A DNA stretch of 64,000 bases from Candidatus Rokuibacteriota bacterium. GTDB taxonomy: Bacteria; Methylomirabilota; Methylomirabilia; Rokubacteriales; CSP1-6. The stretch is taken from NCBI GenBank assembly GCA_016184365.1, contig JACPCW010000074.1:1-64000 (forward strand), in the 5' to 3' direction. Below the pieces are notes generated by a model. The model saw only the letters and a list, made by a program, of their open reading frames with translations, made no database searches and was not told the DNA's origin. Below are positions 6,219 through 44,786 of the stretch, piece by piece (the stretch's first letter is position 1; every line of letters begins with the position of its first letter). The position numbers and the translations under genes were made by a program.

Positions 6219-7199
6219 ATGCGCGCCGTCATCTGCCGGGCCTGGGGACCGATCGACGATCTGCGGTTGGAGGATGTTCCGCCGCCGACGCCGAAGGCCG
6301 GGCAGGTGCTGATCGACGTCAAGGCGACCGGCGTCAATTACGCGGACTCGATCATGGTGGCCGGGCGTTACCAGACGAAGCCCGACTTCCCGTTCAGCCC
6401 CGGCCTCGAAACCGCCGGCGTCGTCGCGCGATGCGGCGACGGCGTCACGCGTTATCGGCTCGGCGACCGCGTGATGGCGATCCTGTCCTACGGCGGCTTC
6501 GCCGAGCAGGCCGTCGCCGACGAGGTCGAGACGTTCGCGATTCCGCCCGCCATGCCGTTCGACGACGCCGGCGCGTTCCCGATCGCGTACGTCTCGAGCC
6601 ACGTCGCGATCCGCTGGCAGGGGCGCCTGGAAGCGGGCGAGACGATGCTCGTCCTCGGTGCGGCCGGCGGCGTCGGGCTCACCGCCGTCGAGATCGGCAA
6701 GGCGATGGGCGCGCGTGTCATCGCGGCCGCGAGCACCGCGGAGAAGCTCGCGGTCGCGCGCGAGCACGGCGCCGACGACGTCATCGACTACTCGCGCGAG
6801 AAACTCACCGAGCGCGTCATGGAGCTCACCGGCGGCAAGGGCGCCGACGTGTGCTTCGATCCCGTCGGCGGCGACCTGTTCGACGCGGCGCTCTCGTCGC
6901 TCGGCTGGGGCGGTCGGATTCTGCTCGTCGGCTTCGTCGGTGGCATTCCGCAGATTCCGGCGAACCGGCTCCTCGTGAAGCACCGCGCGGCGCTCGGCTC
7001 GGCGCTCCGATATTTCCGGTGGCACGCGCAGGACAAGATGCGACGCACCGTGGACGAGCTGCTCGCGTGGTACGGAGCCGGCAAGCTGAAGCCGGCGGTG
7101 ACGCATCGCCTGCCGCTCGAGCAGACGGTGGACGCGATCCGCCTGCTCACCGACCGCAAGGCGTACGGCAAGGTCGTCGTCATGCCGGCGGGTACCTAA
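6219..7199 (+). CDS. NADPH:quinone oxidoreductase (zinc-free MDR family)
   Basis: The 326-aa protein is a medium-chain dehydrogenase/reductase of the quinone oxidoreductase class. It has the GroES-like N-terminal domain (ATGVNYADSIMVAGRYQ, FPFSPGLETAGVV), the nucleotide-binding glycine motif GAAGGVGLTAVEIGKAMG and the family segment GADVCFDPVGGDLFD. The zinc-binding cysteines of alcohol dehydrogenases are absent. The start is ATG at 6219; a -10-like TAGCAT ends 7 bp before it with no ribosome site between, so the transcript could be leaderless. The stop TAA abuts the palindromic element that separates this gene from the enoyl-CoA hydratase. Confidence 0.92.
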   Translation: MRAVICRAWGPIDDLRLEDVPPPTPKAGQVLIDVKATGVNYADSIMVAGRYQTKPDFPFSPGLETAGVVARCGDGVTRYRLGDRVMAILSYGGFAEQAVADEVETFAIPPAMPFDDAGAFPIAYVSSHVAIRWQGRLEAGETMLVLGAAGGVGLTAVEIGKAMGARVIAAASTAEKLAVAREHGADDVIDYSREKLTERVMELTGGKGADVCFDPVGGDLFDAALSSLGWGGRILLVGFVGGIPQIPANRLLVKHRAALGSALRYFRWHAQDKMRRTVDELLAWYGAGKLKPAVTHRLPLEQTVDAIRLLTDRKAYGKVVVMPAGT

Positions 7200-7435
7200 T
7201 GAGTCTCGCGGAATTGCTTGACGGCCCCGGCGCCCGCCGCCGCGGCTGGCTCGCCTGTCGCCGTCGCTCGTTCCGAGGCGGGACGAGCTTCGACCCCCCA
7301 TCCCCCTGCGGGGGCCGCGCGAGCGCTGCCAATCCGCGAGCCTCGCTCGTCCTGCGTCGGAACGAGCACGGCGACGACGGCTCGCCAGCCGCGGCGGCGG
7401 GCGCCGGGGCCGTCAACCAATTCCACGAGAGTCAT
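7199..7435. repeat. long palindromic intergenic element (copy 1)
   Basis: The arms 7199-7274 and 7359-7435 are imperfect inverted copies of each other, about 76 bp each. Both outer ends read ATGA(G/C)TCTCG(C/T)GGAATTG inward, followed by the shared run GACGGCCCCGGCGCCCGCC. The spacer contains a smaller hairpin (CCCCCTGCGGGGG). The element exactly fills the gap between the stop of the quinone oxidoreductase and the start of the enoyl-CoA hydratase. Both arms can be read as a peptide of the type MSLAELLDGPGARRRGW, which explains several spurious ORFs. A third arm lies at 44717-44786. It looks like a non-autonomous mobile or BIME-like element. Confidence 0.85.
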
Positions 7436-7438
7436 TAG

Positions 7439-8194
7439 ATGGAGCTCCGCGTCGAGCCGCACGGCGCGCACGTCGTCGTCATCACGATCGACAACCAGCC
7501 CCGGCGCAATGCGATGCCGCGCGCGATGATGGCCGAGCTCGCGGCGCTGTGGGACCGTCTCGAGCGCGACGCGTGCCGCTGCGTCGTGATCACCGGCGCC
7601 GGGGATCGCGCGTTCAGCTCGGGCGCCGACATGAGCGGCGATCTCTCCGCCGATCCCGACATGGCGCGGGTGGTGAGTCACGCGCTGCTCAAGCACCATC
7701 CGTTCTCGAAGCCGATCGTCGCGGCCGTCAACGGCGACTGCGTCGCCGGCGGCCTCGAGCTCCTGCTGTCGACGGATATCCGCGCCGCCGCGCCCCATGC
7801 GCGCCTCGGCTTGCCGGAAGTCCGCTGGTCCATCTATCCGTTCGGCGGCGCCACCGTGAAGCTCGTCCAGCAGATCGGCCACGTGCACGCGATGGAGCTG
7901 CTGCTGACCGCGAAGCTCATCGACGCGGCGGAAGCCGCGCGGATCGGCCTCGTGAACCGCGTGGTGCCGGCCGACCGGCTGATGCCGTGGGCGATCGAGA
8001 CGGCCGAGACCATCGCCGGCAACAGCCCGAGCGCCGTCCAGGCCGTGAAGCGCCAGATCAGCACGACGATCGCCGAGCACGCGCTGACGCGCGAGGCCCT
8101 GGAGCAGGAGCTCGGGGATCGCGTGCGCGCCAGCGACAACTTCCGTGAAGGCGTCCGCGCGTTCCTCGAAAAGCGCACGCCAAACTACACGTAA
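7439..8194 (+). CDS. enoyl-CoA hydratase/isomerase family protein
   Basis: This 251-aa crotonase-fold protein has the oxyanion-hole segments AFSSGADMSGD and AVNGDCVAGGLELLLSTD and the family helix LGLPEVRWSIYPFGGAT. In typical hydratases two glutamates act; here the first position lies in GLELLL and the second in GLPEVRW, so at least one acidic residue is kept, while the second site is uncertain. It likely acts on an enoyl-CoA made from the acid activated by the neighbouring CoA ligases. It starts four bases after the palindromic element, whose right arm therefore forms its whole leader. A shared direction and short spacing link it to the two amidohydrolases downstream. Confidence 0.92.
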   Translation: MELRVEPHGAHVVVITIDNQPRRNAMPRAMMAELAALWDRLERDACRCVVITGAGDRAFSSGADMSGDLSADPDMARVVSHALLKHHPFSKPIVAAVNGDCVAGGLELLLSTDIRAAAPHARLGLPEVRWSIYPFGGATVKLVQQIGHVHAMELLLTAKLIDAAEAARIGLVNRVVPADRLMPWAIETAETIAGNSPSAVQAVKRQISTTIAEHALTREALEQELGDRVRASDNFREGVRAFLEKRTPNYT

Positions 8195-8206
8195 CCGGAG
8201 GATCCG

Positions 8207-9892
8207 ATGCACGACCTCGTCATCGAAGACGCGCGGATCGTCGACGGCACGGGCGGCCCGTCACGCCATGGGAGCGTGGCCGTCCGCGACGGGCGGATCG
8301 TCGAGGTCGGCGGCGCCGCCGGGCAGCTCGCGCGCCAGCGTGTCAACGCCGCCGGCCGCGTCGTCGCCCCGGGTTTCATCGACCCGCACACGCACTACGA
8401 CGCGCAGGTCGCGTGGGATCCGCTCGTCACCTGCTCGTCGTGGCACGGCGTGACGACGGTCGTCACCGGCAACTGCGGCGTGGGCGTCGCGCCCGTCCGG
8501 CCGGACGCGCGCGAGATCCTCATGGGTGATCTGGTGAACGTCGAAGCGATTCCGCTCGACGTCATGCGCCGCGGCATCGACTGGACGTGGGAATCGTTCC
8601 CGCAGTGGATGGACGCGCTCGCGCGCGCGCCGCTCGGCATCAACGTGGCGCCGCTCGTACCGCTGACGCCGCTGCGCCACTACGTCGTCGGCGAAGCGTC
8701 GTTCGATCGTGCCGCGACGTCCGACGAGATCGTCACCATGGCGCGGCTCTTCGACGAGGCCGTTGGCGCGGGTGCGTTCGGCTTCTCGACGACGTTCCTC
8801 CGCAACCACGTCGGGCACGAGGGCCGGCCGCTCGCCTGCCGCAACGCGAGCGCCGACGAGCTGCGCGCGCTCTGCGGCGTCCTGCGCCGGCGCGGCCGCG
8901 GCGCGATCGAAGCCGCGCTCACCGCCCTCACCGATCGTGTGACCGACGAGGAGCTCGCCACGCTGACGTTGCTCGTCGAAGAGAGCCGGCGTCCCGTGAC
9001 GTACCTCGCGCTGTTCGCGCGCCCGGGCAAGCCGGCCGGCGCGCACGAGGAAGCGCTGACGCGCGTCGCCCCGCTGCTGAGCCGGAATCGCGCGGTGCCG
9101 CAGGTGTCGTGCCGGCCGCTGCGCGCCCAGTTCACGCTGAAGAATCCGTTCATCTTCGCCGGGATGGACGCGTGGGCGGGCGCGTTCAACCGCACGGTCG
9201 AGGAGCAGGCGGCGCTCTATCGCAGCGACGGGTTCCGGAAACAGTGGAAGGCGGACATGGAGCGGCGGCGCGCCGGCGGCGGACTCTGGCGCCGCATCAC
9301 GATCCGCGACGCGGCGACGCCGGGAGTCGCGGCGCTCGCCGGCCAGTCGATCACGGACATCGCGGCCGCGCGGAATGTCGATCCCGTCGACGCGTTCCTC
9401 GACGTCGCGCTGGACGACGGGCTCGAGGCGCTGTTCGACTTCCCCATTTTCAACCAGGATCCCGAAGCCGTCCGTCCGCTCGTGACCGACCCGCGCTTCC
9501 TGATCGGCCTGTCCGACGGCGGCGCGCACGTCGATCAGCTCTGCGACGCCGGGTACGCGACCTACCTGCTCGGGAAGTGGGTGCGGCAGTGGCAGGCGCT
9601 CACGCTCGAGAGCGCGGTGCACCGGCTGACGGGCGAGGTCGCCGACTTCTTCGGCATTCCGGATCGCGGGCGGCTCACCGCCGGCGCCGCGGCCGATCTC
9701 GTCGTCTTCGATCCCGACACCGTCGACGACTGCCCGCCGGAGTACGTGCGCGACCTGCCCAACGGCGCCAAGCGGCTCGTGGCGCGCGCGCGCGGCGTGC
9801 ACGCGACCGTCGTCGCCGGCCAGGTCGTCTCCGAGGACGACGAGCCGACGGGCGCGCGGCCCGGCACCGTGCTGCGCTCGCGAGGGAACTGA
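8207..9892 (+). CDS. amidohydrolase, D-aminoacylase (N-acyl-D-amino-acid deacylase) family
   Basis: The 561-aa protein shows the amidohydrolase superfamily layout: a small beta domain at the start (VIEDARIVDGTGGPSRHGSVAV), the metal motif GFIDPHTHYDAQVAWDP at about residue 65, a TIM barrel, the aspartate motif LSDGGAHVD near residue 433, and a closing beta domain (GRLTAGAAADLVVFDPDTV). The nearest families are D-aminoacylases and dihydropyrimidinase-like hydrolases; the substrate is unknown. A GGAGG ribosome site precedes the ATG at 8207. It sits 12 bp after the enoyl-CoA hydratase and 2 bp before the next amidohydrolase, so the three form one operon. Confidence 0.92.
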   Translation: MHDLVIEDARIVDGTGGPSRHGSVAVRDGRIVEVGGAAGQLARQRVNAAGRVVAPGFIDPHTHYDAQVAWDPLVTCSSWHGVTTVVTGNCGVGVAPVRPDAREILMGDLVNVEAIPLDVMRRGIDWTWESFPQWMDALARAPLGINVAPLVPLTPLRHYVVGEASFDRAATSDEIVTMARLFDEAVGAGAFGFSTTFLRNHVGHEGRPLACRNASADELRALCGVLRRRGRGAIEAALTALTDRVTDEELATLTLLVEESRRPVTYLALFARPGKPAGAHEEALTRVAPLLSRNRAVPQVSCRPLRAQFTLKNPFIFAGMDAWAGAFNRTVEEQAALYRSDGFRKQWKADMERRRAGGGLWRRITIRDAATPGVAALAGQSITDIAAARNVDPVDAFLDVALDDGLEALFDFPIFNQDPEAVRPLVTDPRFLIGLSDGGAHVDQLCDAGYATYLLGKWVRQWQALTLESAVHRLTGEVADFFGIPDRGRLTAGAAADLVVFDPDTVDDCPPEYVRDLPNGAKRLVARARGVHATVVAGQVVSEDDEPTGARPGTVLRSRGN

Positions 9893-9894
9893 CG

Positions 9895-11073
9895 ATGGCG
9901 AAGCCGATCATCTCCGCCGACTCGCACGTCACGGAACCGCCGGACACGTACGTCACGCGCATCGACCCGAAGTTCCGCGAGCGCGCGCCGCACGTCGTGC
10001 ACGACCCGAAGCGCGGCGATCTCTTCGTCATCGACGGGATGGACAAGCCGATCCCGATGGGTCTCATCGCCGCGGCGGGCAAGCCCGCCGAAGAGCTCCG
10101 CATGTTCGGCACGCGCTTCGCCGACATGCATCGCGGCGGCTGGGACCCCGACGCGCGCCTGGCGGACCAGGACCGGGACGGCGTCGCCGCCGAAGTCCTG
10201 TATCCGACGGTCGGGATGATGCTCTGCAACCATCCCGACGTCGACTTCAAGCACGCGTGCTTCGAGGCCTACAACCTCTGGATCGCGGAGTACGCGGGCG
10301 CGCATCCGGATCGGCTGATCGGCACCGGGCAGACGGCGATGCGCTCGGTGGACGACGGCATCCGCGATCTCCGCCGCATCAGGGAGCTCGGGCTCCGCGG
10401 CGTGATGATGACCGGCAACCCGGCCGTCGCCGACTACGACGATCCGATGTACGACCCCGTGTGGGAAGCGGCCGTCGATCTCGAGCTGCCGTTGAGCTTC
10501 CACATCCTCACGAGCCAGCAGGACAACTTCAAGACGCGCGGACCGAAGCTGAACTCGTTCATGTCGATCATCCGCGGCTGCCAGGACATCATCGGCCTGT
10601 TCATCCTGGGCGGCGTGTTCGAGCGGCACCCGAAGCTCCGGCTCGTCTGCGTCGAGGCCGACGCCGGCTGGGTGCCGCACTTCATGTACCGGATGGATCA
10701 CGCGTACAAGCGGCACCGCTACTGGCTCACCGCCGGCGCGCTCAGCCGGCTGCCGAGCGACTACTTCCGCGATCACGTCTACACGACGTTCCAGGACGAC
10801 TGGTCCGCCTTCCAGGTGAAGGACCTCTGCAACGTGCGGCGGCTGCTCTGGGCCAACGACTTCCCGCACAGCGATTCGACGTGGCCGCACTCGCAGGAGG
10901 TGCTCGCGAAGCACGCGGCGCATCTGACCGACGCGGAGCGCGATCTCGTGCTCCACGACAACGTCGCGGAACTCTATGGAATTGGGGGCCCCGACATGGC
11001 CCCCAAACCCCCCGACGCTCGGCGCGCCCCGGCAAAGCCGTGGCACGCCTCGAATCTCGGGCAGCCGAGCTAG
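9895..11073 (+). CDS. amidohydrolase, ACMSD-like (amidohydrolase 2) family
   Basis: This 392-aa protein belongs to the decarboxylase-like amidohydrolases: ISADSHVTEPPDTY at the N-terminus supplies the metal-binding pattern, with LPLSFHILTSQ and LWANDFPHSDSTWPHS further on giving the later His and Asp ligands. Such enzymes hydrolyse or decarboxylate cyclic or aromatic acids. I placed the start at the ATG at 9895, two bases after the previous stop. The natural fold should end near LHDNVAELYGI; the last ~30 residues (GGPDMAPKPPDARRAPAKPW...) are coded by a GC-rich hairpin and a REP-like repeat that also occurs at 42119, so they look like an acquired tail. Its stop overlaps the convergent dehydrogenase stop by 4 bases (CTAG). 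Confidence 0.9.
   Translation: MAKPIISADSHVTEPPDTYVTRIDPKFRERAPHVVHDPKRGDLFVIDGMDKPIPMGLIAAAGKPAEELRMFGTRFADMHRGGWDPDARLADQDRDGVAAEVLYPTVGMMLCNHPDVDFKHACFEAYNLWIAEYAGAHPDRLIGTGQTAMRSVDDGIRDLRRIRELGLRGVMMTGNPAVADYDDPMYDPVWEAAVDLELPLSFHILTSQQDNFKTRGPKLNSFMSIIRGCQDIIGLFILGGVFERHPKLRLVCVEADAGWVPHFMYRMDHAYKRHRYWLTAGALSRLPSDYFRDHVYTTFQDDWSAFQVKDLCNVRRLLWANDFPHSDSTWPHSQEVLAKHAAHLTDAERDLVLHDNVAELYGIGGPDMAPKPPDARRAPAKPWHASNLGQPS
11018..11052. repeat. REP-like hairpin (copy 1) in the 3' end of the amidohydrolase
   Basis: On the minus strand this reads CGAGGCGTGCCACGGC, loop TTT, GCCGGGGCGCGCCGAG: a near-perfect stem. It shares about 30 bases with the copy at 42119-42150. Directly upstream (10984-11005) lies another hairpin, GGGGGCCCCGACATGGCCCCC. 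Both are inside the reading frame. Confidence 0.8.
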
Positions 11074-12143
11074 ACGAGCGCCGCCGGCGGCTCGCCGCGG
11101 CGGACCCGCGCGACGTTGTCGAGCACCGCGTGCACGTCGCGCAGCAGATCGGTGCCGGAACCCGCCGCCACGTGCGGCGTGAGCACGACGGTCGGCAGAT
11201 GCGCGAGGCCCTCCGCATGCTTCGGCGGCTCTTCGGCCCGGACATCGAGGCCGGCCCCGCCCAGGTGACCGCTACCGAGCGACGCGATCAGCGCCGCCTC
11301 GTCGACCAGCCCGCCCCGCGACGTGTTCACGAGGATGGCGCCACGACGCATCCGCGCGAGCTCCGCGGCGCCGATCATGTGGCGCGTCTCCGGCGTCAGC
11401 GGCACGTGCAGGCTGACGACGTCGGAGTCGGCGATCAGCGATGCGAGCGACCGGAACTCGATGGCGAGCGAGCTCTCGAGCGTGGGATCGAGCCGGCGGC
11501 GCTGGGTGTAGAGGAGGCGCATGCCGAAGGGCCGCGCCTTGCGCGCGACGTCACGTCCGATCTCGCCCAGGCCGATCAGGCCGAGCGTCAAGCCGCGCAG
11601 TGATTGCACGCCGTCGAGGCGCGGCCAGTTGTACGAGCTCTCGCCGCGCGGCACGTCGCCGGTCGGCTTCACGGCGGCGGCATGCGACGGGAGCAGCCGG
11701 CGCACCGCGGCGAGCAACAGCAGCATCGTCTGCTCCGCGACCGCGGAGTTCGCCCACCGCGTGAGTGGCGCGACGGGGATGCCCCGCCGCCCGGCCGCGT
11801 CGAGATCGATGTTGCGGCAGTCCTCGCCGTGCTTCTGCACGAGCCGGAGGTCCGCGCCGCGCGCGAGCACGGCGTCGGTGATCTCGGCGCCTTCGACCAG
11901 CAGGTAGTGCACGCCGTCGACCTGCGTCTCGAGCGGGTCGCCGGACGCCACGACCGGCGTCACCTGGTCCGCGAGCCCGAGCCCAGCCCCGATCGCGCGT
12001 AACCGCGCGAGGCTCGCGTCTGGATCCGTGAGGAAGAAGCGCGACACCGCGGTCCGCATCCGCGCGTCGAGCGGCGCGCCGAGCGCGAGGCCGACGAGCC
12101 GCAGCGGCGGATCGTCCTCGGCGATCAGCAGGCGCTCAACCAC
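11070..12143 (-). CDS. D-isomer specific 2-hydroxyacid dehydrogenase
   Basis: This 357-aa NAD(P)-dependent dehydrogenase has the GLGEIGRDVARKA dinucleotide motif (residues about 190-203), the catalytic arginine region LVNTSRGGLVDEAAL, a glutamate in VRAEEPPKHAE and the histidine motif LTPHVAAGSG. These are the R-E-H residues of the family. It reduces a 2-keto acid or oxidises the D-hydroxy acid; the substrate is unknown. It starts with GTG at 12143, overlapping the stop of the MmgE/PrpD gene by 8 bases, so the two are co-transcribed. Confidence 0.92.
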   Translation of the reverse strand: MVERLLIAEDDPPLRLVGLALGAPLDARMRTAVSRFFLTDPDASLARLRAIGAGLGLADQVTPVVASGDPLETQVDGVHYLLVEGAEITDAVLARGADLRLVQKHGEDCRNIDLDAAGRRGIPVAPLTRWANSAVAEQTMLLLLAAVRRLLPSHAAAVKPTGDVPRGESSYNWPRLDGVQSLRGLTLGLIGLGEIGRDVARKARPFGMRLLYTQRRRLDPTLESSLAIEFRSLASLIADSDVVSLHVPLTPETRHMIGAAELARMRRGAILVNTSRGGLVDEAALIASLGSGHLGGAGLDVRAEEPPKHAEGLAHLPTVVLTPHVAAGSGTDLLRDVHAVLDNVARVRRGEPPAALV

Positions 12144-13515
12144 GGAGCACGTCCATCAGCGGCGCCACCGACGGCAGCGTCTCGAAGGTTTCCAGCATCG
12201 TCAGCGCGCGCGCGGCGCGGTCGGAATCGAGGCTCAGCCGCGCGCAGTCGCGGTACTTCGCATGCAGCTCGTCGCGGCTCATCGGATTCTCCGGGCTCCC
12301 GCGCGCGAACCGCACCGTGTCCGTGAATTCCGCGCCGTCGTCGAGCACGATCGTGACCGTCGTGCGGTCGCCCATCGGATCCGTCGCGACGGCCGGCTGA
12401 CCGCGCTCGAGCACCGGATCGACGTACGTCCGCACCTTTGCCATCATCGCGCGCGTCGCGGCGTCCCGGACGCGCTCGTCCGTGAAGGCGTCGAGACCGA
12501 GCCGGCCATCGAGCATCGCGACCGCGGCGCAGAACTCCAGGCTCGGCTTGCCCTCGAGCCCGGTGCGCGGCTCGGTGCGGATGAGCACACCCGTGAACAT
12601 GTAGCTCACGCCGACGCGGATCTCCCGCACGCGCTCCGGCCGGATGCGATGCCGCGCGCGGAGATCGAGGATCGCGTCGATCGCGCGCTGCAGCGGCGCG
12701 CCGCACGGATAGGGCTTCAGCACGTAGCCGGCGCGCTGGATCTCCCACGGATCGCCGAGCCCCTTCGTGAGCTGCTCGACGTCGGCGCCGTCGGCGCCGG
12801 CGAACAGCGCACAGTAACCCATGCGCGATTCGAGGATGCCGCGGTCGGCGCTGACGCCGCGCGCGGCGAGCTCCGCGGCCACGACACCGGCGCGCGCCGC
12901 CTGCCCCGCGTGGAGCGGCATCGTCATCGTGCCGAACTGCTGGCGTGACCCGCCCGCCATCGACGCCGCGATGCCGAGCGCCATCTCGACGTGATCGGCG
13001 TCGAGCTCCAGCAACCGCGCGGAGGCGGCGGCCGCCGCGACCGTGCCGAAGCTCACGGTCGCGTGCCAGCCCTTCTCGTAGTGCGACGGGTTCAGCGCGC
13101 GCCCGAGCTTGTTCGACACCTCGTAGCCGATGACGTAGGCGTCGAGCACGCGCCGGCCCGAGGCGCCGGAGAGCTCGCCGAGCGCGAGCAGCGCCGGCGC
13201 GAGCGCGACCGTCGTGTGCGCCATCGACACGAACGTCGTGTCCTCGTACAGGAGCGCGTGCGCCAGCGTGCCGTTGGCGAGCGCGGCCTGCGCCGTGCTC
13301 GTCTTGAAGCCGCTGGCCACGACCGTCGCCTGCGCGCTGCCGCCGGCCTCGCGCACCCAGTCGGTGACGATCCGGCCGACCGGCTGGGCGGCGCCGGCGA
13401 GCGTCGTCGCCGTGACGTCGACGAACGCCGTGCGCGCGAGCGCGATCGCCGGCGGCGGGATCGCCGCCGGATGCGTCTCCGCGACGAACCGCGAGAGCTG
13501 CGCGGTCGCGCTCAT
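12136..13515 (-). CDS. MmgE/PrpD family protein (2-methylcitrate dehydratase-like)
   Basis: The 459-aa protein has the two-domain MmgE/PrpD layout: an all-helical N-terminal domain (ALANGTLAHALLYEDT, and SFGTVAAAAASARLLELD) and a C-terminal alpha/beta domain (LKPYPCGAPLQRAIDAILDL). The family includes 2-methylcitrate dehydratase, itaconate-related and immune-responsive enzymes. The context here is not a methylcitrate cycle, since no prpB or prpC is visible; it sits between an importer for a small organic compound and a hydroxyacid dehydrogenase. The real substrate is therefore likely a different hydroxy acid brought in by that transporter, which is an inference. Confidence 0.9.
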   Translation of the reverse strand: MSATAQLSRFVAETHPAAIPPPAIALARTAFVDVTATTLAGAAQPVGRIVTDWVREAGGSAQATVVASGFKTSTAQAALANGTLAHALLYEDTTFVSMAHTTVALAPALLALGELSGASGRRVLDAYVIGYEVSNKLGRALNPSHYEKGWHATVSFGTVAAAAASARLLELDADHVEMALGIAASMAGGSRQQFGTMTMPLHAGQAARAGVVAAELAARGVSADRGILESRMGYCALFAGADGADVEQLTKGLGDPWEIQRAGYVLKPYPCGAPLQRAIDAILDLRARHRIRPERVREIRVGVSYMFTGVLIRTEPRTGLEGKPSLEFCAAVAMLDGRLGLDAFTDERVRDAATRAMMAKVRTYVDPVLERGQPAVATDPMGDRTTVTIVLDDGAEFTDTVRFARGSPENPMSRDELHAKYRDCARLSLDSDRAARALTMLETFETLPSVAPLMDVLRG

Positions 13516-13531
13516 GACGCGCGCGCGATCC

Positions 13532-14542
13532 TCACGGAAACTTCGTCGGCACGTAGCGCGTGTCGACCACTTCCTCGAACGCGGGCGGGCGCGTGATGAG
13601 CCCCGCGAACTTCAGCATCTCGCCGATGTTCGCCACGGCCTGCCTGGTGATGACCGGCCGATACGCCTTCATGCTGTCCTGGAGCGTCTGGCGCAACAGC
13701 TTCGGATCGATGCCCTCGAAGTACTTCTCGGCCACCTTCACCGCGTCCTCGAAGTTCTTCGGATCGGCGAGGAAGCGGTGCGTCTCGACGATCGCGGCGA
13801 CCATGCGCCGCGCCGTCTCGGGATTGGCGTCGAGGTACTCCTCCTTCGCGACCATGCTGTTGTACGCGTACTCGCGCAAAACTTTCGGTCCCTCGCCCTT
13901 CCGCATGTCGACCACCGGCTTCGCGATGGCGAGGCCGTGGACCGCCTGCGTCTGGATCGGCTCGAAGCCGATGAAGCCCTGGATGTCGCCTTTCGAGAGC
14001 GCGGCGAGGCTCGTCGAGACGCCCCCCGTCGCGATGATCGTGACGTCCTTGTCGGGGTCCAGCCCGCCATCGCGCAGCAGGAAGCGGAGCGTGAAGTCCG
14101 TGCTCGCGCCGCGGCCCGTGATGCCGAGCTTCAGACCCTTCAGGTCGCGCATCACGGCCGGATAGCCCTGGCTCGCGCTCGGCAGCGGCACTTCCTTGCG
14201 GACGATGAGGGTGAACGGCGAGTCCGTCAGGTTGGCGACGATCGCCTTCACGCGCAGGCCCTTGTCGCGGACCTGCGTGACGTGCTCGGTCGCGAGCGCC
14301 CCGAATTCGACCGACCCTGACACGACCGCCGTCGTCGTCTCGGCGCCGCTGCGGAAGTACACGAGCGAGGCGTCGAGGCCGTGCCTGGCGAAGATGCCGC
14401 GCGCCTCCGCGACGTACGGCGCGAAGTAGACGAACGCCGAACGGAGGACCGAGATCTTCACCGGCGTGCGGCCCTGCGCGTCGGGTCCGGACACCGTGAT
14501 CGCGGTCAGTACGAGAGCGAGCGCGAGAACGAAAACCTTCAT
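13532..14542 (-). CDS. ABC transporter substrate-binding protein, NitT/TauT (NMT1-like) family
   Basis: This 336-aa exported protein starts with a signal peptide (MKVFVLALALVLTAITVSG, cleavage near AQG). The first lobe carries YVAEARGIFARHGLDASLV and GSVEFGALATEHV, and the second RDLKGLKLGITGRGASTDF, which are hallmarks of NMT1/SsuA-like binding proteins. It captures a small organic ligand in the periplasm for the permease (14580) and the frameshifted ATPase (15416). An AAGGAG ribosome site lies 7 bases before the ATG. Confidence 0.93.
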   Translation of the reverse strand: MKVFVLALALVLTAITVSGPDAQGRTPVKISVLRSAFVYFAPYVAEARGIFARHGLDASLVYFRSGAETTTAVVSGSVEFGALATEHVTQVRDKGLRVKAIVANLTDSPFTLIVRKEVPLPSASQGYPAVMRDLKGLKLGITGRGASTDFTLRFLLRDGGLDPDKDVTIIATGGVSTSLAALSKGDIQGFIGFEPIQTQAVHGLAIAKPVVDMRKGEGPKVLREYAYNSMVAKEEYLDANPETARRMVAAIVETHRFLADPKNFEDAVKVAEKYFEGIDPKLLRQTLQDSMKAYRPVITRQAVANIGEMLKFAGLITRPPAFEEVVDTRYVPTKFP

Positions 14543-14579
14543 CGATCGGCTCCTTGTCCGGCGGGGCGCGTCGCGCCCG

Positions 14580-16220: not shown

Positions 16221-16271
16221 CGCGCAGGGACGCTATCACAGTCGTCCGGGCGCTCGCAATTGAACGCCGCG

Positions 16272-17897: not shown

Positions 17898-17922
17898 CCC
17901 GTCGCACGACGGGCGGTACCGT
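17893..17922 (+). promoter_or_regulatory. predicted sigma70-like promoter for the alcohol dehydrogenase
   Basis: TTGACC at 17893-17898, an 18-bp spacer and TACCGT at 17917-17922 precede the ATG at 17931 by only 8 bases. No ribosome site fits in between, so the message may be leaderless. The -35 overlaps the stop of the CoA ligase. Confidence 0.45.
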
Positions 17923-17930
17923 CTGCCCCC

Positions 17931-31969: not shown

Positions 31970-31985
31970 CGATACAATCCGATTG

Positions 31986-32174: not shown

Positions 32175-32625
32175 CGCACTGACGGCCGCCCGCGTCGATT
32201 TCGTGATCGTCGGCGGGGTGGCTCTCGTCCTCCGTGGCTCGTCGCGCGTCACGATCGATCTCGACGTCTGCTATGCCCGCGACCGGGACAACCTGCGCCG
32301 CCTCGCGGGCGCCCTCGCCCCGTTCCACCCCCGACTTCGAGGCGCTCCGTCGGACCTCCCGTTTCTCTGGGACGAGCGCACGCTGGCCAGCGGCCTGAAC
32401 TTCACGCTCACCACGGACCTGGGCGACGTCGACATCCTCGGGGAGATTCCCGGAATCGGCGATTACGCGAAGGTCGCTGCGGGTTCGTCGGATCTCTCCG
32501 TGGGATCGACGCGGGTGCTCGTGCTGGATCTGGATGCGCTCGAGCGGGCCAAGCGGGCCGCTGGACGCGCGAAGGATCTGCTCGACCTCGCCGAGATCGC
32601 CGAAATTCGCCGGCGCTCGCGATGA
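32149..32625 (+). CDS. nucleotidyltransferase (MNT/AbiEii-like)
   Basis: The 158-aa protein has the nucleotidyltransferase core FVIVGGVALVLRGSSRVTIDLDVCYA, where the GG and the D-x-D pair (DLDV) are the catalytic motif, and a later GDVDILGEIPG carries the third aspartate. The start is a GTG at 32149. Together with the 62-aa partner it looks like a two-gene MNT locus, which in other bacteria can be toxin-antitoxin or antiphage. It overlaps the SDR gene by ATGA. Confidence 0.8.
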   Translation: MTDVQRLLDALTAARVDFVIVGGVALVLRGSSRVTIDLDVCYARDRDNLRRLAGALAPFHPRLRGAPSDLPFLWDERTLASGLNFTLTTDLGDVDILGEIPGIGDYAKVAAGSSDLSVGSTRVLVLDLDALERAKRAAGRAKDLLDLAEIAEIRRRSR

Positions 32626-37354: not shown

Positions 37355-37471
37355 ACCTACCGGCCGCGAACGCGCTGCGAGCCGCTGCAGGAGTGCCGGA
37401 GGCCCGCGAGGCGCGCTACCATGCTGCCTGACGTGAGCGATCTTCATGCGGCTCGCGTCACGGAGAGGGCG

Positions 37472-38047
37472 ATGACCAGGTTCGGTTTTCTCGTGGCGTG
37501 CCTCTTGTCCGCGACGGCGTGTGCGACGACGACCGAGTCGAGGGATCCGGCGCGCCCCCCCAGCGCGGAATCGAGCACCGCACGGGACGATGCAGTCGAC
37601 GGCGCACGCGTCGCGCTCGTGATCGGAAACAGCAAGTATCAGCACGCGCCCCCGCTCGCCAACCCGCCGAACGACGCCCGGGCGATGACTCGCGTCCTCA
37701 AACGGCTCGGCTTCGACGTCGCGCGGTGTGTCGAACGGTCTCTACGCGCGACGGCGGAGCTCTGCGCCGAGTGGTACGGACGCGCCGTGCCGCGGCATCA
37801 GGTCACGCTCGACACGTATTACCTCGACCGCTTCGAGGTCACCAACGCCCGATTCGAGCGGTTCGTGCAAGCGACAGGGCACCGGACGACCGCGGAGATG
37901 GAAGGGCATGGGTGGTCGTGGCAGCAGAAAGACGGCAAATGGCAGTGGGTGCAGGTCGACAGCGCGAACTGGCGAACGCCGAATGGCCGTGCGTCCGTCG
38001 CCGAGTCGGATCATCCGGTCGTTCATGTTTCGTGGCACGACGCCTCG
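37472..38047 (+). pseudogene. remnant joining a caspase-like start to a truncated formylglycine-generating-enzyme domain
   Basis: The ATG at 37472 opens a lipoprotein-like signal (VACLLSATACATTTES). Next comes the first part of a caspase-fold peptidase domain (VALVIGNSKYQHAPPLANPP), which stops after about 45 residues, before its histidine and cysteine. It then jumps into a sulfatase-modifying/FGE domain (VTLDTYYLDRFEVTNARFERF) that breaks off at HPVVHVSWHDA, exactly where the convergent zeta-like gene begins to be read. The ORF only stays open to 38809 because it is antisense to that gene. It is the residue of an internal deletion plus 3' loss. Confidence 0.85.
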
Positions 38048-38641
38048 TTACAGCCCGCGGATTCCGCGGGCCCACGCAGGGATTGGCGGGCGGCGAACGG
38101 TCACCTGGCCGTCCGTGGAGACCGCGACGAGGCGATACGGGTCGTCGGCGGAGCTGTTGTCGAACAGGAACGCCTCGTCGACGAGCTCGATCGCAGCCCG
38201 GAGATTCTTCAACGTCCGCGGAAACCGCGCGCGCAGCTTCGCGTCCGGCACGTCGTGTCCGCCCTGCGCGACCCGCTGCATCACGCGCGCGATCGAGAGC
38301 GCGGGGCTTTCGAGGCCGATGAAGATCAGAACGACGACGAATCCCCGGGCGCGCGCCGAGCGGAGCAATCCGAGCTTCGCGCCCGCCGGGTCCGAGAACA
38401 CCGTCTCCGTGCAGAACGCCATCTGCGCCTGGACGAAGGCGGTCCGAAGCTGCTCGGCCGCGGCGAATGCGCGCCGGTCGACGTCACCGGCAGGTGCCGT
38501 CGGATCCGCCGCGCGCAACGCCGCCGCCACACGATCGGCGTTGACGTACGGCAGGCCGAGATCGGCCAGGTACCGCTCGAAGAACGTGGACTTGCCCGAC
38601 CCGTTGGGTCCGGCGAGAAAGATCAGAACCGGCGCAGTCAG
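38048..38641 (-). CDS. zeta-toxin-like AAA kinase of a toxin-antitoxin pair
   Basis: Reading this strand gives a 197-aa P-loop protein with Walker A FLAGPNGSGKSTFFERYL, the residues YVNADRVAAALR, FVQAQMAFCTETVFSDPAG and a DEAFLFDNS end, as in zeta-type kinases that phosphorylate UDP-GlcNAc or similar. No ATG, GTG or TTG lies in frame near the start; a CTG at 38641 overlaps the antitoxin stop as CTGA, in the same way other genes here overlap as GTGA. The ORF track starts 37 codons too late and loses the Walker A. Its 3' end overlaps the FGE/caspase remnant. Confidence 0.8.
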   Translation of the reverse strand: MTAPVLIFLAGPNGSGKSTFFERYLADLGLPYVNADRVAAALRAADPTAPAGDVDRRAFAAAEQLRTAFVQAQMAFCTETVFSDPAGAKLGLLRSARARGFVVVLIFIGLESPALSIARVMQRVAQGGHDVPDAKLRARFPRTLKNLRAAIELVDEAFLFDNSSADDPYRLVAVSTDGQVTVRRPPIPAWARGIRGL

Positions 38642-39099
38642 GCGGTTCGCCGCCCCGGGCGCTTCGGCCGCCGCGACACCTTGCGAGCCGCGATCTTCAG
38701 CGCCGGCGGATCCGCGACGAACCGGCGACCTTCGAGATGGCCCGGCGTCCGGGTGCCGTCAGGCTCGATCTGGACGAGCTTGCCGGGATACGCCGGATCC
38801 GTCGTGTAGATCGGCGTCCCGGCGGCACGGATCCGCGCCTTGACGTCCTCGCGGCGCGCGTCGTCCGCGACGGCCGCGAGCAGCGCGTGCACCTCGTCGT
38901 GCGGGACATGAGCCGGCACCGGCAGCGACTCGCCAGCGCGCTTGAGCGCGAGCACGTCGCGGTAGGCCATCATCGCCTCGACGGCCCGGCCGAGCGTCGC
39001 CCAGTGCTCGATCTGCGCCGTCGCCGAGCGATACGTGCCCTGCGCTTCTTCCTTCGCCAGCGCCAGGAGCCGATCCGAGACTTTTACCGGCGATGCCAT
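38638..39099 (-). CDS. ParD-like antitoxin
   Basis: This 153-aa protein (MASPVKVSDRLLALAKEEAQ) matches the ParD-like antitoxin family (ribbon-helix-helix start KVSDRLLALAKEEA, then a helical arm SATAQIEHWATLGRAVEAM). It would repress its own promoter and neutralise the zeta-like toxin encoded just after it. A GGAGG ribosome site precedes the ATG at 39099, and the operator at 39114 lies directly upstream. Confidence 0.85.
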   Translation of the reverse strand: MASPVKVSDRLLALAKEEAQGTYRSATAQIEHWATLGRAVEAMMAYRDVLALKRAGESLPVPAHVPHDEVHALLAAVADDARREDVKARIRAAGTPIYTTDPAYPGKLVQIEPDGTRTPGHLEGRRFVADPPALKIAARKVSRRPKRPGRRTA

Positions 39100-39113
39100 G
39101 TCGGCCTCCGTGT

Positions 39114-39151
39114 GGTAGCCCGTTGCTACCTCATGGTAGCACTTTACTACC
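39114..39151. promoter_or_regulatory. tandem palindromic operator for the ParD/zeta operon
   Basis: GGTAGC (39114-39119) faces GCTACC (39125-39130), and a second pair GGTAGC (39135-39140) faces CTACC (39147-39151). Two adjacent dyads with the same half-site GGTAGC are the usual pattern for a ribbon-helix-helix antitoxin that represses itself. Confidence 0.75.
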
Positions 39152-39167
39152 GCCGGGCCGCGACGGC

Positions 39168-40379
39168 TCACCCGAGCGCCCGGCGCGGCGACGCGAGCCA
39201 GAAGCACGCCGTGCCCGCGGCGCAGCAGGCCACCGCGATCAGGAACGCCACGCGATACGTCCCGGTCACGTCGAACATCGCGCCCGCGAACCACGGGCCG
39301 AGCGCGCCACCGATCCCGTTCCCGACCGACATGTACCCGTAGATCGCGCCGAAGCGGCGGCCGGGGAACCGCTGGGCGGCGATCGCGGTGATGATCGGAC
39401 CGCGCGCGCCGAAGCCGAGACCGAAGAGCACGCCGTAGACGTACAGCGCCGCGACGTGGGGCCAGACCTCGATCGAGAGGAGCGCGAGCGTTCCCGCCGC
39501 CGTGCAGCCGTAGGACATCGCCGCCGCTTCGACGCGGCCGACGCGATCCGCCGCGAACCCGAACACGATGCGGCCGACGATCGACATCAACCCCGTGATC
39601 CCGAAGATGCCCGCGACGAACAGCGGGTCGTAGCCGTGATCGACGGCGAAGGCGACCTGGTGCGTGATCACGGGAAAGACGGCGAGCGGCGTGAACACGT
39701 AGGCGGCGAAGAGCGCCCAGAACGCCCGCGTCCGCATGGCCGCGCGCACGTCGATGTCGGGCCGCGGAGGCAGCGCGTCGGCGCGCGGCACCCCGCGCGC
39801 CGTGCCCGCCGGGGCTTCTCGGACACCGAACCAGACGATCGGCATCAGGATCGCCAGGGTGCCCACACCGAGCGCGAGATAGGCGTACCGCCAGCCGTAG
39901 TGGACGATGAGCCACTGCGCGAGCGGCCCGAGCGTCAGCACGCCGACGCCCATGCCGGAAAAGACGAGGCCCATCATGCTCGCCTGCCGGTGCGCGAACC
40001 ATTGCGCGACGAGCGCGCCGCTCGGCACCTGGCCGACCGCGCAGAGCCCCACGGCGGTGAGCACGCCGACGACGAGATAGAGATGCCAGAGCGACGTGAT
40101 CCGGCTGGCGAGCACGCACGCGATGCCGAGCACGAGCGCCCCGGCCACGATGATCCGCCGCGGGCCGACGCGATCGACCAGGCCGCCGACGCCCGGCGAC
40201 AGCACGCCCTGCACGATGGCGGAGATCGAAAACGCGCCCGCGGCCACGCCGCGCGACCAGCCGAATTCCGCGAGCAGCGGGACGAGGAAGACGGAGAACG
40301 AAAACTGCAGGCCGTTCGCGAACCCCATCGTCAGCCACGCGCTGACGACCATGAAGGCGGCGGACGCGCGTGGCGGCAC
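39168..40379 (-). CDS. MFS transporter, monocarboxylate-like
   Basis: The 403-aa protein is a 12-helix major facilitator: TM1 (AAFMVVSAWLTMGFANGLQFSF), motif A-like GLVDRVGPRRIIVAGALVLG, and a C-half with LFGLGFGARGPIITAIAAQRFPG. I take the GTG at 40379 as start; an ATG nine codons later is possible. Its substrate is probably a carboxylate, by resemblance to monocarboxylate/oxalate-type members. It lies 13 bp from the hydantoinase B stop in the same direction, suggesting it imports that pathway's substrate. Confidence 0.9.
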   Translation of the reverse strand: MPPRASAAFMVVSAWLTMGFANGLQFSFSVFLVPLLAEFGWSRGVAAGAFSISAIVQGVLSPGVGGLVDRVGPRRIIVAGALVLGIACVLASRITSLWHLYLVVGVLTAVGLCAVGQVPSGALVAQWFAHRQASMMGLVFSGMGVGVLTLGPLAQWLIVHYGWRYAYLALGVGTLAILMPIVWFGVREAPAGTARGVPRADALPPRPDIDVRAAMRTRAFWALFAAYVFTPLAVFPVITHQVAFAVDHGYDPLFVAGIFGITGLMSIVGRIVFGFAADRVGRVEAAAMSYGCTAAGTLALLSIEVWPHVAALYVYGVLFGLGFGARGPIITAIAAQRFPGRRFGAIYGYMSVGNGIGGALGPWFAGAMFDVTGTYRVAFLIAVACCAAGTACFWLASPRRALG

Positions 40380-40392
40380 GTGGCGGGGCGCG

Positions 40393-42171
40393 CTACGCGC
40401 GCGGGTCGGAACCGCGGGCGCTGCGCAGCGCTCGCGTCGCGTCGGCGTCGACGTCGAGCGTGACCGGATCGATGGCGACGCCGTGCTCGCGTCGCGCGTA
40501 GTCGACGGTGATCTTGTCGTCGCGCACGTCGGCCGCAACGCGCGCGGGGTCGCGCGCGAACGGATCCCCGTGGCCGCCGCCGCCCGGCTGGTCGTGCTGG
40601 ACGACGTCGCCGCGCCGCAGCACCATCGCGAACTTCGCCGGCATGTCGCGCTCGTCGGGGCCGGGATTCAGGACGTTCCGCGTGCCACGCGCGGGCTGGC
40701 CGCCGGCGAGGCCGTACGGCCGGAACGCCATCCGATCGGACCTGAGCTGCAGCGTGGCCTCGTCGTTCAGCAGCGTGTAGCGCCGGCGCAGCCCGAGACC
40801 GCCGCGCCACCGGCCGGCGCCGCACGAATCCGGGATGAACCCGTACTCGTCGATGCGGATCGGATGCTGCGCCTCGAGCACTTCGACGGGTGCGTTCGAC
40901 ATGTTCTGCGAGGGGTTCGTGACCGCTTCCATCCCGTCGCGGTCCGGCCGGCCGCCCCACGCGCCGGTGATCATGTCGACCAGCACGAACGGCTTCCGCG
41001 CCGCCGTGAGGCCGCCGATCGACAGCACGGTGTTGCCGCCCTCGCCCGCGGCCGGGACGCGATCCGGCAGCGCCTGCGCGAGCGCGCCGAGCACGACGTC
41101 GAGCATGCGGTAACCGGTCAGCGCGCGCGCGGCGCACGCGCCCGGCAGTCGTGGGTTGAGCACGGTGCCCTCGGGCGCGACGACGTCGATGCACCGGAAG
41201 ACGCCGGCGTTGTTCGGCACGTCCTGGCGCAGCACCGAGCGCACCGACAGGTACGTGCACGACTTCGTGAACGACAGCGTCGAGTTCAGCGCGGCTCGCA
41301 CCTGCGGCGCGCTGCCCGTCCAGTCGCACGTGAGATGCCCGTCCGCGTGCACCGTGATCGCCACCGTCAGCGGCACGGGCGCGTCGCTCAAGCCGTCGCT
41401 GTCGAGGTAGTCGGTGAAGCGATACGTGCCCTGCGGCCAGCGCGCGATCTCGGCGCGGGTGACGCGCTCGGCGTAATCGAGCAGGTCGGTCATGTACGCG
41501 CGGACCGTGTCGCGGCCGTACCGCGCGAAGAGCCTGCCCAGCTCGCGCTCGCCCACCTTGCACGCGGCGTACTCCGCATCGAGATCGCCGAGCACGCGAT
41601 CGGGCACGCGCACGTTCTTCTCGATGATGCGCCGCATCGTGCGGCTCGGCACGCCGCGCTCGTAGAACTTCACCGGCGGGATGCGCAAGCCCTCCTGGTA
41701 GATCTCGGTGGAGTCGCTCGCGTTCGAGCCGGGCACGCGTCCGCCCATGTCGGTCTGGTGGCCGATCACGACGGTGAACGCCTCGATCCGGCCGTCGACG
41801 AACACCGGCATGAAGAGGAAGACGTCCGGGATGTGCATGCCGCCTTCGTACGGGTCGTTCATCATCACGACGTCGCCGGGATGGAGATCGCCGCGAAACT
41901 CGCGCCGCACGCTCTGCATCGCGTCCGGCACCGCGCCGAGATGCTGCGCGATGGTCTTCGCCTGCGCGATCAGCACGCCGTCGGCGTCGCAGAGCGCGGC
42001 CGAATAGTCCATGACGTCCTTGATGATCTCGGAGCGCGCGGTGCGAATGACGGAATACGCCATGTCGTCGACGATGGCGTCGAGCGCGCTCTTGATGACG
42101 GCGAAGGTGATGGGATCGCGACGCCCCGGCAAAGCCGTGGCGCGCCTCGAGGTTGACTCGGGATCTCTCAT
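40393..42171 (-). CDS. hydantoinase B/oxoprolinase family protein (HyuB-like)
   Basis: This 592-aa protein is the beta subunit of the N-methylhydantoinase/acetone-carboxylase type: PITFAVIKSALDAIVDDMAYSV, VMMNDPYEGGMHIPDV, FTKSCTYLSVRSVLRQDVPNNAG and the end YARREHGVAIDP. Its first 20 residues contain an insertion, MRDP-(16 residues)-ITFAV, whose DNA is the REP-like element at 42119. ATP-dependent hydrolysis of a cyclic amide, or ketone carboxylation, would need the A subunit at 42168. The two genes overlap by ATGA. Confidence 0.93.
   Translation of the reverse strand: MRDPESTSRRATALPGRRDPITFAVIKSALDAIVDDMAYSVIRTARSEIIKDVMDYSAALCDADGVLIAQAKTIAQHLGAVPDAMQSVRREFRGDLHPGDVVMMNDPYEGGMHIPDVFLFMPVFVDGRIEAFTVVIGHQTDMGGRVPGSNASDSTEIYQEGLRIPPVKFYERGVPSRTMRRIIEKNVRVPDRVLGDLDAEYAACKVGERELGRLFARYGRDTVRAYMTDLLDYAERVTRAEIARWPQGTYRFTDYLDSDGLSDAPVPLTVAITVHADGHLTCDWTGSAPQVRAALNSTLSFTKSCTYLSVRSVLRQDVPNNAGVFRCIDVVAPEGTVLNPRLPGACAARALTGYRMLDVVLGALAQALPDRVPAAGEGGNTVLSIGGLTAARKPFVLVDMITGAWGGRPDRDGMEAVTNPSQNMSNAPVEVLEAQHPIRIDEYGFIPDSCGAGRWRGGLGLRRRYTLLNDEATLQLRSDRMAFRPYGLAGGQPARGTRNVLNPGPDERDMPAKFAMVLRRGDVVQHDQPGGGGHGDPFARDPARVAADVRDDKITVDYARREHGVAIDPVTLDVDADATRALRSARGSDPRA
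42119..42150. repeat. REP-like hairpin (copy 2) inside the hydantoinase B gene
   Basis: The minus strand reads CGAGGCGCGCCACGGCTTTG then CCGGGGCGTCG. It is nearly identical to 11018-11052. GGGATC occurs on both sides (42112-42117 and 42160-42165), 48 bp apart, as a target-site duplication would. The insertion keeps the reading frame (16 extra codons). Confidence 0.8.
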
Positions 42172-44276
42172 CGGACGAGCACGAGGTTGCCGAAGGCATC
42201 GCGCGCGATCGTCGCCTCCGGTGGCACGACGACCGTCGAATCGTAGCTTTCGACGACGAGCGGTCCCGGCCGCGCGGTCGTGCCGACGTCCGCGCGTCCG
42301 ATCACCGGCGTCTCGATCGGCGCCGCGCCCCGCCGGAAATGCACGGGCCGGGTGCGCGCCGCCGTCGAGGGCTCGTCCGCGACACCGACCGCCCGGAAAT
42401 CGAGACGCCGGTCGCTCAGCCCGCGGGCGACCAGGCGGACGTTGACGAGCTCGAGCGCCTCGTCGCTCGCGTAGCCGTACGTCGCTTCGTATTCCGTCTG
42501 AAACGCGTCGCGCAGCGCGCCGAGCCGCGCGGCATCGAGCGTTCCGCCGGGGAGCGGGACGATGAGCTCCGACGCCTGGCCGGCGTAGCGCAGGTCGGCC
42601 TGCGGCTCGAGCCGCGTGCGCGCGTCGTCGTATCCCTCCGCCGCCAGCGTCGCCACGGCCTCGCGGCGCAGCCCGGCGAGGCGCTCGCGCGCACGCTCGA
42701 GGGCGCCGGCATCGCCGAGCAGGCCGCCGGCGGCGCGGACGAAGTGGTGCTCGACGTCGCTGGCCAGCATGCCCACGGCGGTGAAGACACCGGGCGACAC
42801 CGGAACGAGCACGCGGCGGATCTCGAGCGCCGCGGCGACGTCGCACGCGTGGACCGGCCCGCTGCCGCCGAACGCGACCAGCGTGAAGTCGCGCGGATCG
42901 CGACCGCGCTCGATCGTCACCGCGCGGATCGCGCGCGCCATGCTCGCGTTCGCGACGTCGCGGACGCCGTGCGCGGCCTCGACGACGGACAGCCCGAGCG
43001 GCCGCGCGACGTGCCGCGTGATCGCGTCGCGCGCCAGGTCCGCGCGCAGCTTCAGCCGGCCGCCCGCGAGCTGCTCCGGATTGAGATAGCCGAGCACGAC
43101 GTTCGCATCGGTGATCGTCGGCGTGTCGCCGCCGATGCCATAGCAGGCCGGTCCCGGTCGTGCGCCCGCCGATCTCGGACCGACGCGCAGCAGGCCGCCG
43201 TCGTCGATCCACGCGATCGATCCGGCACCGGTCCCGACTTCCGCGAGGTCGATCGCCGGCACTTTCAGCATCACGCCGCCGGCCTTGATGAAGCGGCTCG
43301 ACGTGCTGATGCCTTCGCGGAACTCGTACTCGGTCGTGAGCGCCGGCCGGCCGTGCTCGACGAGCGCGGCCTTGGCCGTCGTGCCGCCCATGTCGAACAC
43401 GATCAGGTTCGGCTCGTCGATCGCGACGCCGAGCCGCGCGGCGCCGGCGACGCCGGCGGCCGGTCCCGAGCCGACGACGAACGCCGGCCGCTCCGCCGCC
43501 TGGCGGGCGCCCATCACGCCGCCGTTCGACGCGACGACGAGCAGCGGCGCGTCGATGCCGAGGCGCTTCAGACTCGCCGCGAGGGTGTCGAGATACCGGC
43601 GCATCACGGGCAGGAGATACGCGTTCGCGACGGTCGTGCTCGTGCGCTCGTATTCCTTGATCTCCGGCAGCACGGCGTACGAGGCGGTGACGTCGACGTC
43701 CGGGAAGCGGTCGCGCACGAGACGCTCGGCCTCCCGCTCGTGCGCGGGATTCGCGTAGCTGTTGATGAAGCAGATCGCGATCGAGCGGATCCGCGCCTCG
43801 ACGAGGTGCTGCGCGGCCGCGACCACCCCATCGCGATCGAGCGGACGCACGATCGAGCCGTCCGCCGCGATGCGCTCGTCGACTTCGCGCCGATGGCGCC
43901 GCGGCACGAGCGGCGGCGGCTTGACCCACGTGAGGTCGTAGAGGTCGGGCGTGCGCACCCGTCCGATCTCGAGCACGTCGCGAAAGCCGCGCGTGGTGAT
44001 CAGTCCGGTGGCCGGGCCGGTCTTCTGCAGCACGGCATTGGACGCGACGGTCGTGCCGTGCACGATCTCCCGGACGTCGCCCGCGGCGACGCCCGCGACG
44101 CGCAGCAACTCGGCGAGACCGTCGACCACGGCGACGCCGGGATCGTCCGGCGTCGACGACACCTTGCTGACGCGGAGCGAGCCGTCGGGAAGCGCGAGCA
44201 CGATGTCCGTGAACGTGCCGCCGATGTCGACGCCGACACGCGGCGCGACACGCGTGACGCGCGGCTTCGTGATCAT
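42168..44276 (-). CDS. hydantoinase A/oxoprolinase family protein (HyuA-like)
   Basis: The 702-aa protein shows the acetate/sugar-kinase-like ATP-binding fold of hydantoinase A: RVGVDIGGTFTDIVLALPDG at the start, VHGTTVASNAVLQKTG, the second phosphate motif FDMGGTTAKAALVEHG and FGGSGPVHACDVAAAL. It uses ATP for ring opening of a cyclic amide (hydantoin, oxoproline) or for related carboxylation chemistry. I use the ATG at 44276; another lies six codons upstream. With the B subunit and an MFS transporter it forms a three-gene unit. Confidence 0.93.
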   Translation of the reverse strand: MITKPRVTRVAPRVGVDIGGTFTDIVLALPDGSLRVSKVSSTPDDPGVAVVDGLAELLRVAGVAAGDVREIVHGTTVASNAVLQKTGPATGLITTRGFRDVLEIGRVRTPDLYDLTWVKPPPLVPRRHRREVDERIAADGSIVRPLDRDGVVAAAQHLVEARIRSIAICFINSYANPAHEREAERLVRDRFPDVDVTASYAVLPEIKEYERTSTTVANAYLLPVMRRYLDTLAASLKRLGIDAPLLVVASNGGVMGARQAAERPAFVVGSGPAAGVAGAARLGVAIDEPNLIVFDMGGTTAKAALVEHGRPALTTEYEFREGISTSSRFIKAGGVMLKVPAIDLAEVGTGAGSIAWIDDGGLLRVGPRSAGARPGPACYGIGGDTPTITDANVVLGYLNPEQLAGGRLKLRADLARDAITRHVARPLGLSVVEAAHGVRDVANASMARAIRAVTIERGRDPRDFTLVAFGGSGPVHACDVAAALEIRRVLVPVSPGVFTAVGMLASDVEHHFVRAAGGLLGDAGALERARERLAGLRREAVATLAAEGYDDARTRLEPQADLRYAGQASELIVPLPGGTLDAARLGALRDAFQTEYEATYGYASDEALELVNVRLVARGLSDRRLDFRAVGVADEPSTAARTRPVHFRRGAAPIETPVIGRADVGTTARPGPLVVESYDSTVVVPPEATIARDAFGNLVLVR

Positions 44277-44342
44277 GTCGGTGCACTGTATCATCGGCGC
44301 TCGTGTCCGCTCGGCACGCGACGCCAGAGCCGCCGTACGCGT

Positions 44343-44663
44343 GGGCTGCCGGTGCTCTACGTGCTGAGCGCGCTCTTCGGGCTCGGCTTCAGCGGCGTGA
44401 TGACGTCGATCTGGGTGTCGCTCCGCGAGCTCGTGCCGCCGCGCGTGGCAGCGACGTCGCTGGCGACCGTCGTGATGTTCGCGTGGATGGGCATGGGCTT
44501 CGGCGGCTGGTACGGCGGCCACGTCTTCGACATGACGGGCGGCTACACGCACTCGTATGCGCACGCCGTCGTGAGCGGCGTCGTCAACGTCGCGATCGTC
44601 GCCGCGCTCGTGCGGCACGTCGGCCGCGCGCGCGCGGCACTGGTTGCGCACCCTGCGGCCTGA
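44343..44663 (+). pseudogene. 3' remnant of an MFS transporter
   Basis: Only the last three membrane helices of an MFS protein remain: LPVLYVLSALFGLGFSGVM, then FAWMGMGFGGWYGGHVFDMTG and VVSGVVNVAIVAALVRH, ending in a TGA. There is no start codon or ribosome site for this frame, and the upstream bases belong to the divergent hydantoinase. The remnant ends 53 bp before a copy of the palindromic element, so the loss may be linked to it. Confidence 0.85.
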
Positions 44664-44716
44664 CATGGCGAAGTGGTCCTTTACCGCCTCGCGGCGCCAC
44701 ACTCAACGAACCTCGC

Positions 44717-44786
44717 GGAACGGCGTGCGGGCGAGCCCGCTGCGGCCGCCGTGGGCGGGACCGTTGACCAATTCCGCGAGACTCAT
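44717..44786. repeat. arm of the palindromic intergenic element (copy 2, half)
   Basis: The minus strand starts ATGAGTCTCGCGGAATTGGT and continues CAACGGTCCCGCCC, matching both outer arms of the element at 7199-7435. The second arm is missing. It lies between the truncated MFS remnant and the intact MFS gene at 44799. Confidence 0.75.

Follow-up and report, generated by a model that had tools for sequence, protein, structure and literature searches.

A palindromic intergenic element in a Rokubacteriales genome is very probably a non-autonomous IS630-type MITE that enters CTAG, frequently at stop codons

The window, the whole 64,000-nucleotide stretch of Candidatus Rokuibacteriota DNA that was analysed, contains a 237-bp inverted repeat placed precisely between two adjacent, co-directional genes: one for a zinc-type alcohol dehydrogenase, which ends at 7199, and one for an enoyl-CoA hydratase, which starts at 7439. 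The palindrome described by an earlier reading of the letters without database searches (the sequence-only reading) is present as it was stated, at 7199-7435 and far above chance. Complementarity between its outer arms, 7196-7255 and 7379-7438, reaches 92%, 7266-7288 and 7345-7367 form a second, inner pair of arms, and the element strand folds with -203 kcal/mol compared with -118 +/- 5 kcal/mol for shuffled sequences (z = -16). Three occurrences of the end motif were counted in the window, against a chance expectation of 0.03. The features of the element are collected in Table 1.

The site at 44.7 kb had been taken for a third arm, a half-copy of the element. This was rejected, as both ends are found at 44706-44786, the left terminus ACGAACCTCGCGGAAC and the right terminus GACCAATTCCGCGAGACTCAT. 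The middle is missing and the TA flanks are mutated, and the site is therefore a decayed deletion derivative. The 102-aa remnant beside it, previously regarded as a truncated MFS gene, is only weakly MFS-like (Pfam MFS_1, E=0.02), and its comparison with the neighbouring MFS gene revealed no similarity. The copy adjoins the 3' side of the remnant, away from its truncated 5' end, and with no visible link between the two the suggestion that the element moved or recombined there is unsupported. Similarly, the copy was dropped as the cause of the MFS truncation since it keeps both ends and the remnant is unlike the neighbouring MFS gene. A 2902-codon open reading frame (46560-55268, plus strand) lies near this second copy.

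Table 1. Features of the element in the window, and loci of the related order-wide repeat in other genomes
Feature	Position	Strand	Basis
Full MITE copy, IS630 type, 237 bp	7199..7435	+	genome-wide family, termini and flanks common to ~25 copies, fold
Left TA of the duplicated target (in C-TA)	7197..7198	.	flanks; reconstructed empty site CTAG compared with relatives
Right TA of the duplicated target (in TA-G)	7436..7437	.	flanks; reconstructed empty site CTAG compared with relatives
Left terminal inverted repeat ATGAGTCTCGCGGAATTGCTTGACGGCC, common to IS630 parents	7199..7226	+	IS/MITE end alignment
Right terminal inverted repeat	7408..7435	-	IS/MITE end alignment
Left variable self-complementary arm segment	7227..7249	+	varies among subfamilies, pairing kept
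Right variable self-complementary arm segment	7387..7407	+	varies among subfamilies, pairing kept
Conserved core (CTCGCCTGTCGCCG ... GACCCCCCATCCCCC ... ACGGCTCGCC), relative of the order-wide structured repeat	7250..7386	.	sequence comparisons
Regenerated TAA stop of the upstream alcohol dehydrogenase gene (target TA + first A of the element)	7197..7199	+	
Decayed copy that lacks its interior but keeps both termini, ~81 bp	44706..44786	+	
~200-nt repeat in G018, G077, G074, G071, G016 and others	L241, L243, L238, L228, L232, L234, L235-L237, L240, L266-L283		

The element belongs to a family dispersed through its own genome (G000, a draft of 5.58 Mb in 146 contigs, ~90% complete), where at least about 25 copies with uniform ends were found; some are cut at contig ends and all copy counts are lower bounds. 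Nearly all intact copies read ...C-TA/ATGAnnCTCGCGG ... CCGCGAGnnTCAT/TA-G..., slashes marking the borders of the element, and these flanks therefore reflect insertion into CTAG with duplication of the TA. Such a target is known for IS630, which prefers the TA in CTAG and whose cut-and-paste mechanism is described as established (PMC2170065, citing Tenzen and Ohtsubo 1991). A few copies display a left flank CTG in place of CTA, presumably through a later change of the stop from TAA to TGA, and others are internally deleted or one-armed. In the one-armed copy at 13627-13862 of L030 (contig C63) the core is joined without a gap to ATGACGCGCATCGCC..., and the copy may in this way provide a gene with its upstream region. 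Several contigs (C28, C81, C90, C111, C128 and C143) end inside or beside MITE copies; the family thus probably breaks the assembly, and its true copy number would be higher. An exact-pattern scan for the MITE end in public named genomes, a set that perhaps omits the own genome and its near relatives, gave no match.

Empty sites in relatives, the test of mobility proposed with the sequence-only reading, were found. The flanks of ten copies were joined with a single TA and compared with 57 genomes of the family, and for several copies a continuous orthologous match extends across the junction in many relatives. The window copy has empty orthologous sites in G001, of the same genus, and in G005, G007, G009, G017, G026 and G028. 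The CTAG is kept at some of these sites, in G017 for the window copy and in G027 for the copy on contig C92.

The ends of the family are also those of an autonomous element. The own genome contains one IS630-type DDE fragment, the 3' end of a transposase (DDE_3) on contig C33 that is followed by the MITE terminus, ..CAGCGAGACTCAT/TAG or CCTATTCAGCGAGACTCAT/TAG. With this fragment as query, related transposases were identified in 18 of the 57 family genomes. Complete elements of 1117-1128 bp with both ends and CTA/TAG flanks occupy five loci, in G005, G009, G014, G019 and G062, and the parent class anticipated by the sequence-only reading is thereby found in five related genomes. IS and MITE ends align over ~28 bp, while the inner part of the ends differs (GGAATTGGTTGAC in the MITE vs GAATAGATTAAC in the IS). 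The parent transposase comprises an IS630-type HTH and a DDE_3 domain, which in G009 (L056) lie in different frames around a slippery CTAAAAAAAACG run at ~1115, an arrangement that suggests programmed frameshifting at CTAAAAAAAACG; the DDE part of an IS630 in G009 is identical to one in Candidatus Rokuibacteriota bacterium. An intact parent was not found in the G000 draft, ~90% complete and broken at repeats, and the family is presumably inactive there at present, the only transposase piece being a broken one. Relatives also carry other MITEs with the same ends, in families of 273 bp (G078, G080, G011), 207 bp (G080), 80 bp (G020, G073) and 70 bp (G011), together with one short element in G027.

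Many of the elements sit on stop codons. In the window, the site before insertion reads ACC-TAG-ATG, a stop abutting the next start, and after insertion ACC-TAA...TAG-ATG. The element begins with A and TAG thus becomes TA/A, leaving the upstream protein unchanged. For 14 of 22 own copies, the flank together with the element's first base makes an in-frame stop codon for a gene whose codon composition is of the coding type; the same holds for 16 of 22 elements of relatives, IS included. Background CTAG sites pass the same test in 27 of 70 cases, classified by a simple codon-position test in the own genome only. The difference is significant for all elements (30/44 vs 27/70, p = 0.002) and for those with both flanks readable (25/32, p = 0.0002), yet the excess is moderate because so many background sites also pass, and a claim of pure stop-codon targeting was cut to a partial one on this result. 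Target-site composition thus accounts for part of the placement. CTAG itself is scarce, at 0.17/kb vs 2.75/kb expected from base composition, a 16-fold deficit. The literature searched mentions the CTAG preference of IS630 but not the preservation of stop codons, which need not mean novelty.

Across the families, the ends and a central core of ~140 bp are conserved, whereas each family has arms of unrelated sequence that nevertheless remain self-complementary. Within G000, 25 pairs carry double changes, in 39 cells vs 15 in shuffles. Among 95 genomes of the phylum, the core motif GCGACCCCCCATCCCCC is present in 10, and all of these belong to this order. Core-related elements extend over three of its families; their arms or ends often differ, or no ends are recognisable, and one of them, in G036, matches an own-genome copy directly (E = 6e-9). 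A covariance model built from 25 related core elements finds matches in 21 of the 95 genomes, all of them within the order, and a single genome holds as many as 19 copies. These 25 elements have more than 50 invariant columns in common, their helices covary (48 double changes vs 15 in shuffles, 0/500), and one strand folds much better, with more G-U than A-C exceptions. The order-wide repeat spans ~200 nt; its internal-loop sequences are invariant and its helices covary, while the complementary outer arms are specific to each copy. L232/L234 and L235/L236 apparently occupy orthologous positions in genomes of different genera or species. The window copy, a derived member, goes unrecognised by the model (10.6 bits, E about 1), and its link to the order-wide repeat thus rests on pairwise DNA similarity and intermediates. 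Two core elements, in G018 and G016, likewise start at a TA/A stop and end in TA-G, but their terminal repeat is another one, and the core has thus been carried by two or more types of end; further copies of this second end type, AATAGGCCGTCATGATTTGGAGT, and its autonomous parent were sought in five genomes and none was found. In G016 (contig C119; L239 / L285) half a core element and the start of a different IS630-like transposase gene are ~130 bp apart, which may point to a parent or to an interrupted copy. The window has no Rfam match at the gathering score, and representative core elements have no relevant match at E<=1; the exception is an unrelated c-di-GMP-I-GGC riboswitch (RF03167, E=3.5e-16) at 2716-2796 of L241 (G018), near a core element.

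Taken together, the palindrome is almost certainly a non-autonomous IS630/Tc1-mariner MITE, presumably moved into CTAG by the transposase of a ~1.12-kb IS630-family element, an explanation that builds on the family, the target, the duplication, the empty sites, the parent ends and the stop-codon positions. As in MITEs, the element is short and without coding capacity, has 28-bp TIRs and a hairpin body, and occurs as dispersed copies with uniform ends; its target TA is duplicated and relatives have empty sites. This duplication, like the ends in common with an element encoding an IS630-type DDE transposase, is that of the IS630/Tc1-mariner group. The transposase would act in trans, excising elements that bear the ~28-bp ends and pasting them into CTAG, where the central TA would be duplicated. 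CTAG is rare in this high-GC genome and many such sites are stop codons (..C-TAG); an insertion would turn TAG into TAA, leave the upstream protein intact and hence survive, and this survival is the presumed cause of the placement bias. The body is a near-perfect hairpin with conserved ends, arms that change but stay complementary and a conserved central core.

Palindromic, intergenic and multicopy with a strong hairpin, the element recalls the REP/BIME type, in which a single-strand transposase, RAYT (TnpA-REP), spreads short palindromes. REP/BIME elements lack a target duplication and depend on this HUH enzyme, whereas the present copies have defined ~28-bp inverted termini and duplicate the TA of CTAG, and their ends recur in an element of the double-strand DDE type (IS630), making such an origin a poor fit and extremely improbable. 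The hairpin might instead owe its retention chiefly to a role at the end of the upstream gene, terminating transcription or stabilising the 3' end of the mRNA, as most copies begin at a stop codon and would form a very stable 3' hairpin. This is improbable, although less so: a U-tract after the hairpin is not seen among the copies listed, the window copy lies between adjacent co-directional genes, the CTAG distribution partly explains the position at stops and relatives with empty orthologous sites do without the element.

A function of the core would be compatible with the MITE explanation and add to it. The core may be a functional structured RNA of the order, or structured regulatory DNA, with IS630-type ends as one spreading vehicle; this is a minority reading, favoured by the recurrence of a ~145-nt core with unrelated arms and different or no recognisable ends in three families, by the invariant columns and covarying helices, by the G-U excess on the better-folding strand and by the absence of the core from Rfam. 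The failure of the model on the window copy speaks against it, and covariation in palindromes also arises from shared ancestry and from template-switch correction, which could yield part of the signal and keeps the RNA reading tentative. Slightly less probable still is the fuller version, an undescribed Rokubacteriales structured RNA/DNA module that swaps IS630-type vehicles with different ends and is placed harmlessly at stop codons. The core of the MITE may be a structured module, acting as RNA or as DNA, or else a neutral remnant whose pairing is maintained by template-switch correction of the palindrome. If it is a structured RNA, discrete transcripts with protected ends would be expected from the GGGGGATGGGGGG strand of the related core elements.

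Correia/NEMIS elements of Neisseria and ERIC/RU-1 elements of enterobacteria have TA-type ends. Going by their descriptions, both resemble the present family as small palindromic mobile elements with strong RNA hairpins; they inhabit another host phylum, and the accounts consulted describe neither stop-codon placement nor a cross-family core for them. NEMIS hairpins are proposed RNase III targets (PMC2229807). The RUP element of Streptococcus pneumoniae, which occurs with IS630-Spn1, is likewise an IS630-type MITE, intergenic and multicopy with IS630-like ends and a TA target (PMC2229807, PMC3049150). RUP is 107 bp long and AT-rich, with no reported functional motif; in contrast, the window element is 237 bp long, G+C-rich and nearly fully palindromic, and its core is common to other element families. 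The autonomous IS630/Tc1-mariner elements IS630 and ISY100 share with the present system a DDE transposase (in the parent) and the TA duplication, and IS630 prefers CTAG (PMC2170065), whereas the window element has no gene and its parent type apparently reads the transposase in two frames around CTAAAAAAAACG. SPRITE of S. pneumoniae is similarly enriched near gene 3' ends and was suggested to be co-opted as terminators, but has AAAA/TTTT ends and, in the account cited, no known duplication or parent (PMC3049150).

The element is thus ordinary in class, an IS630-type MITE, and new as a family; what is unusual is the structured core in common with other families and the stop-codon-preserving insertion. 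It adds an IS630-type MITE family and its parent class to an uncultured soil lineage for which the literature searched contained none. It also makes harmless gene-adjacent insertion simple, requiring a CTAG target and A as the first base, by which TAG becomes TAA. The core, a repeated, covarying and order-specific segment outside Rfam, would be a candidate for a new RNA class that is directly testable.
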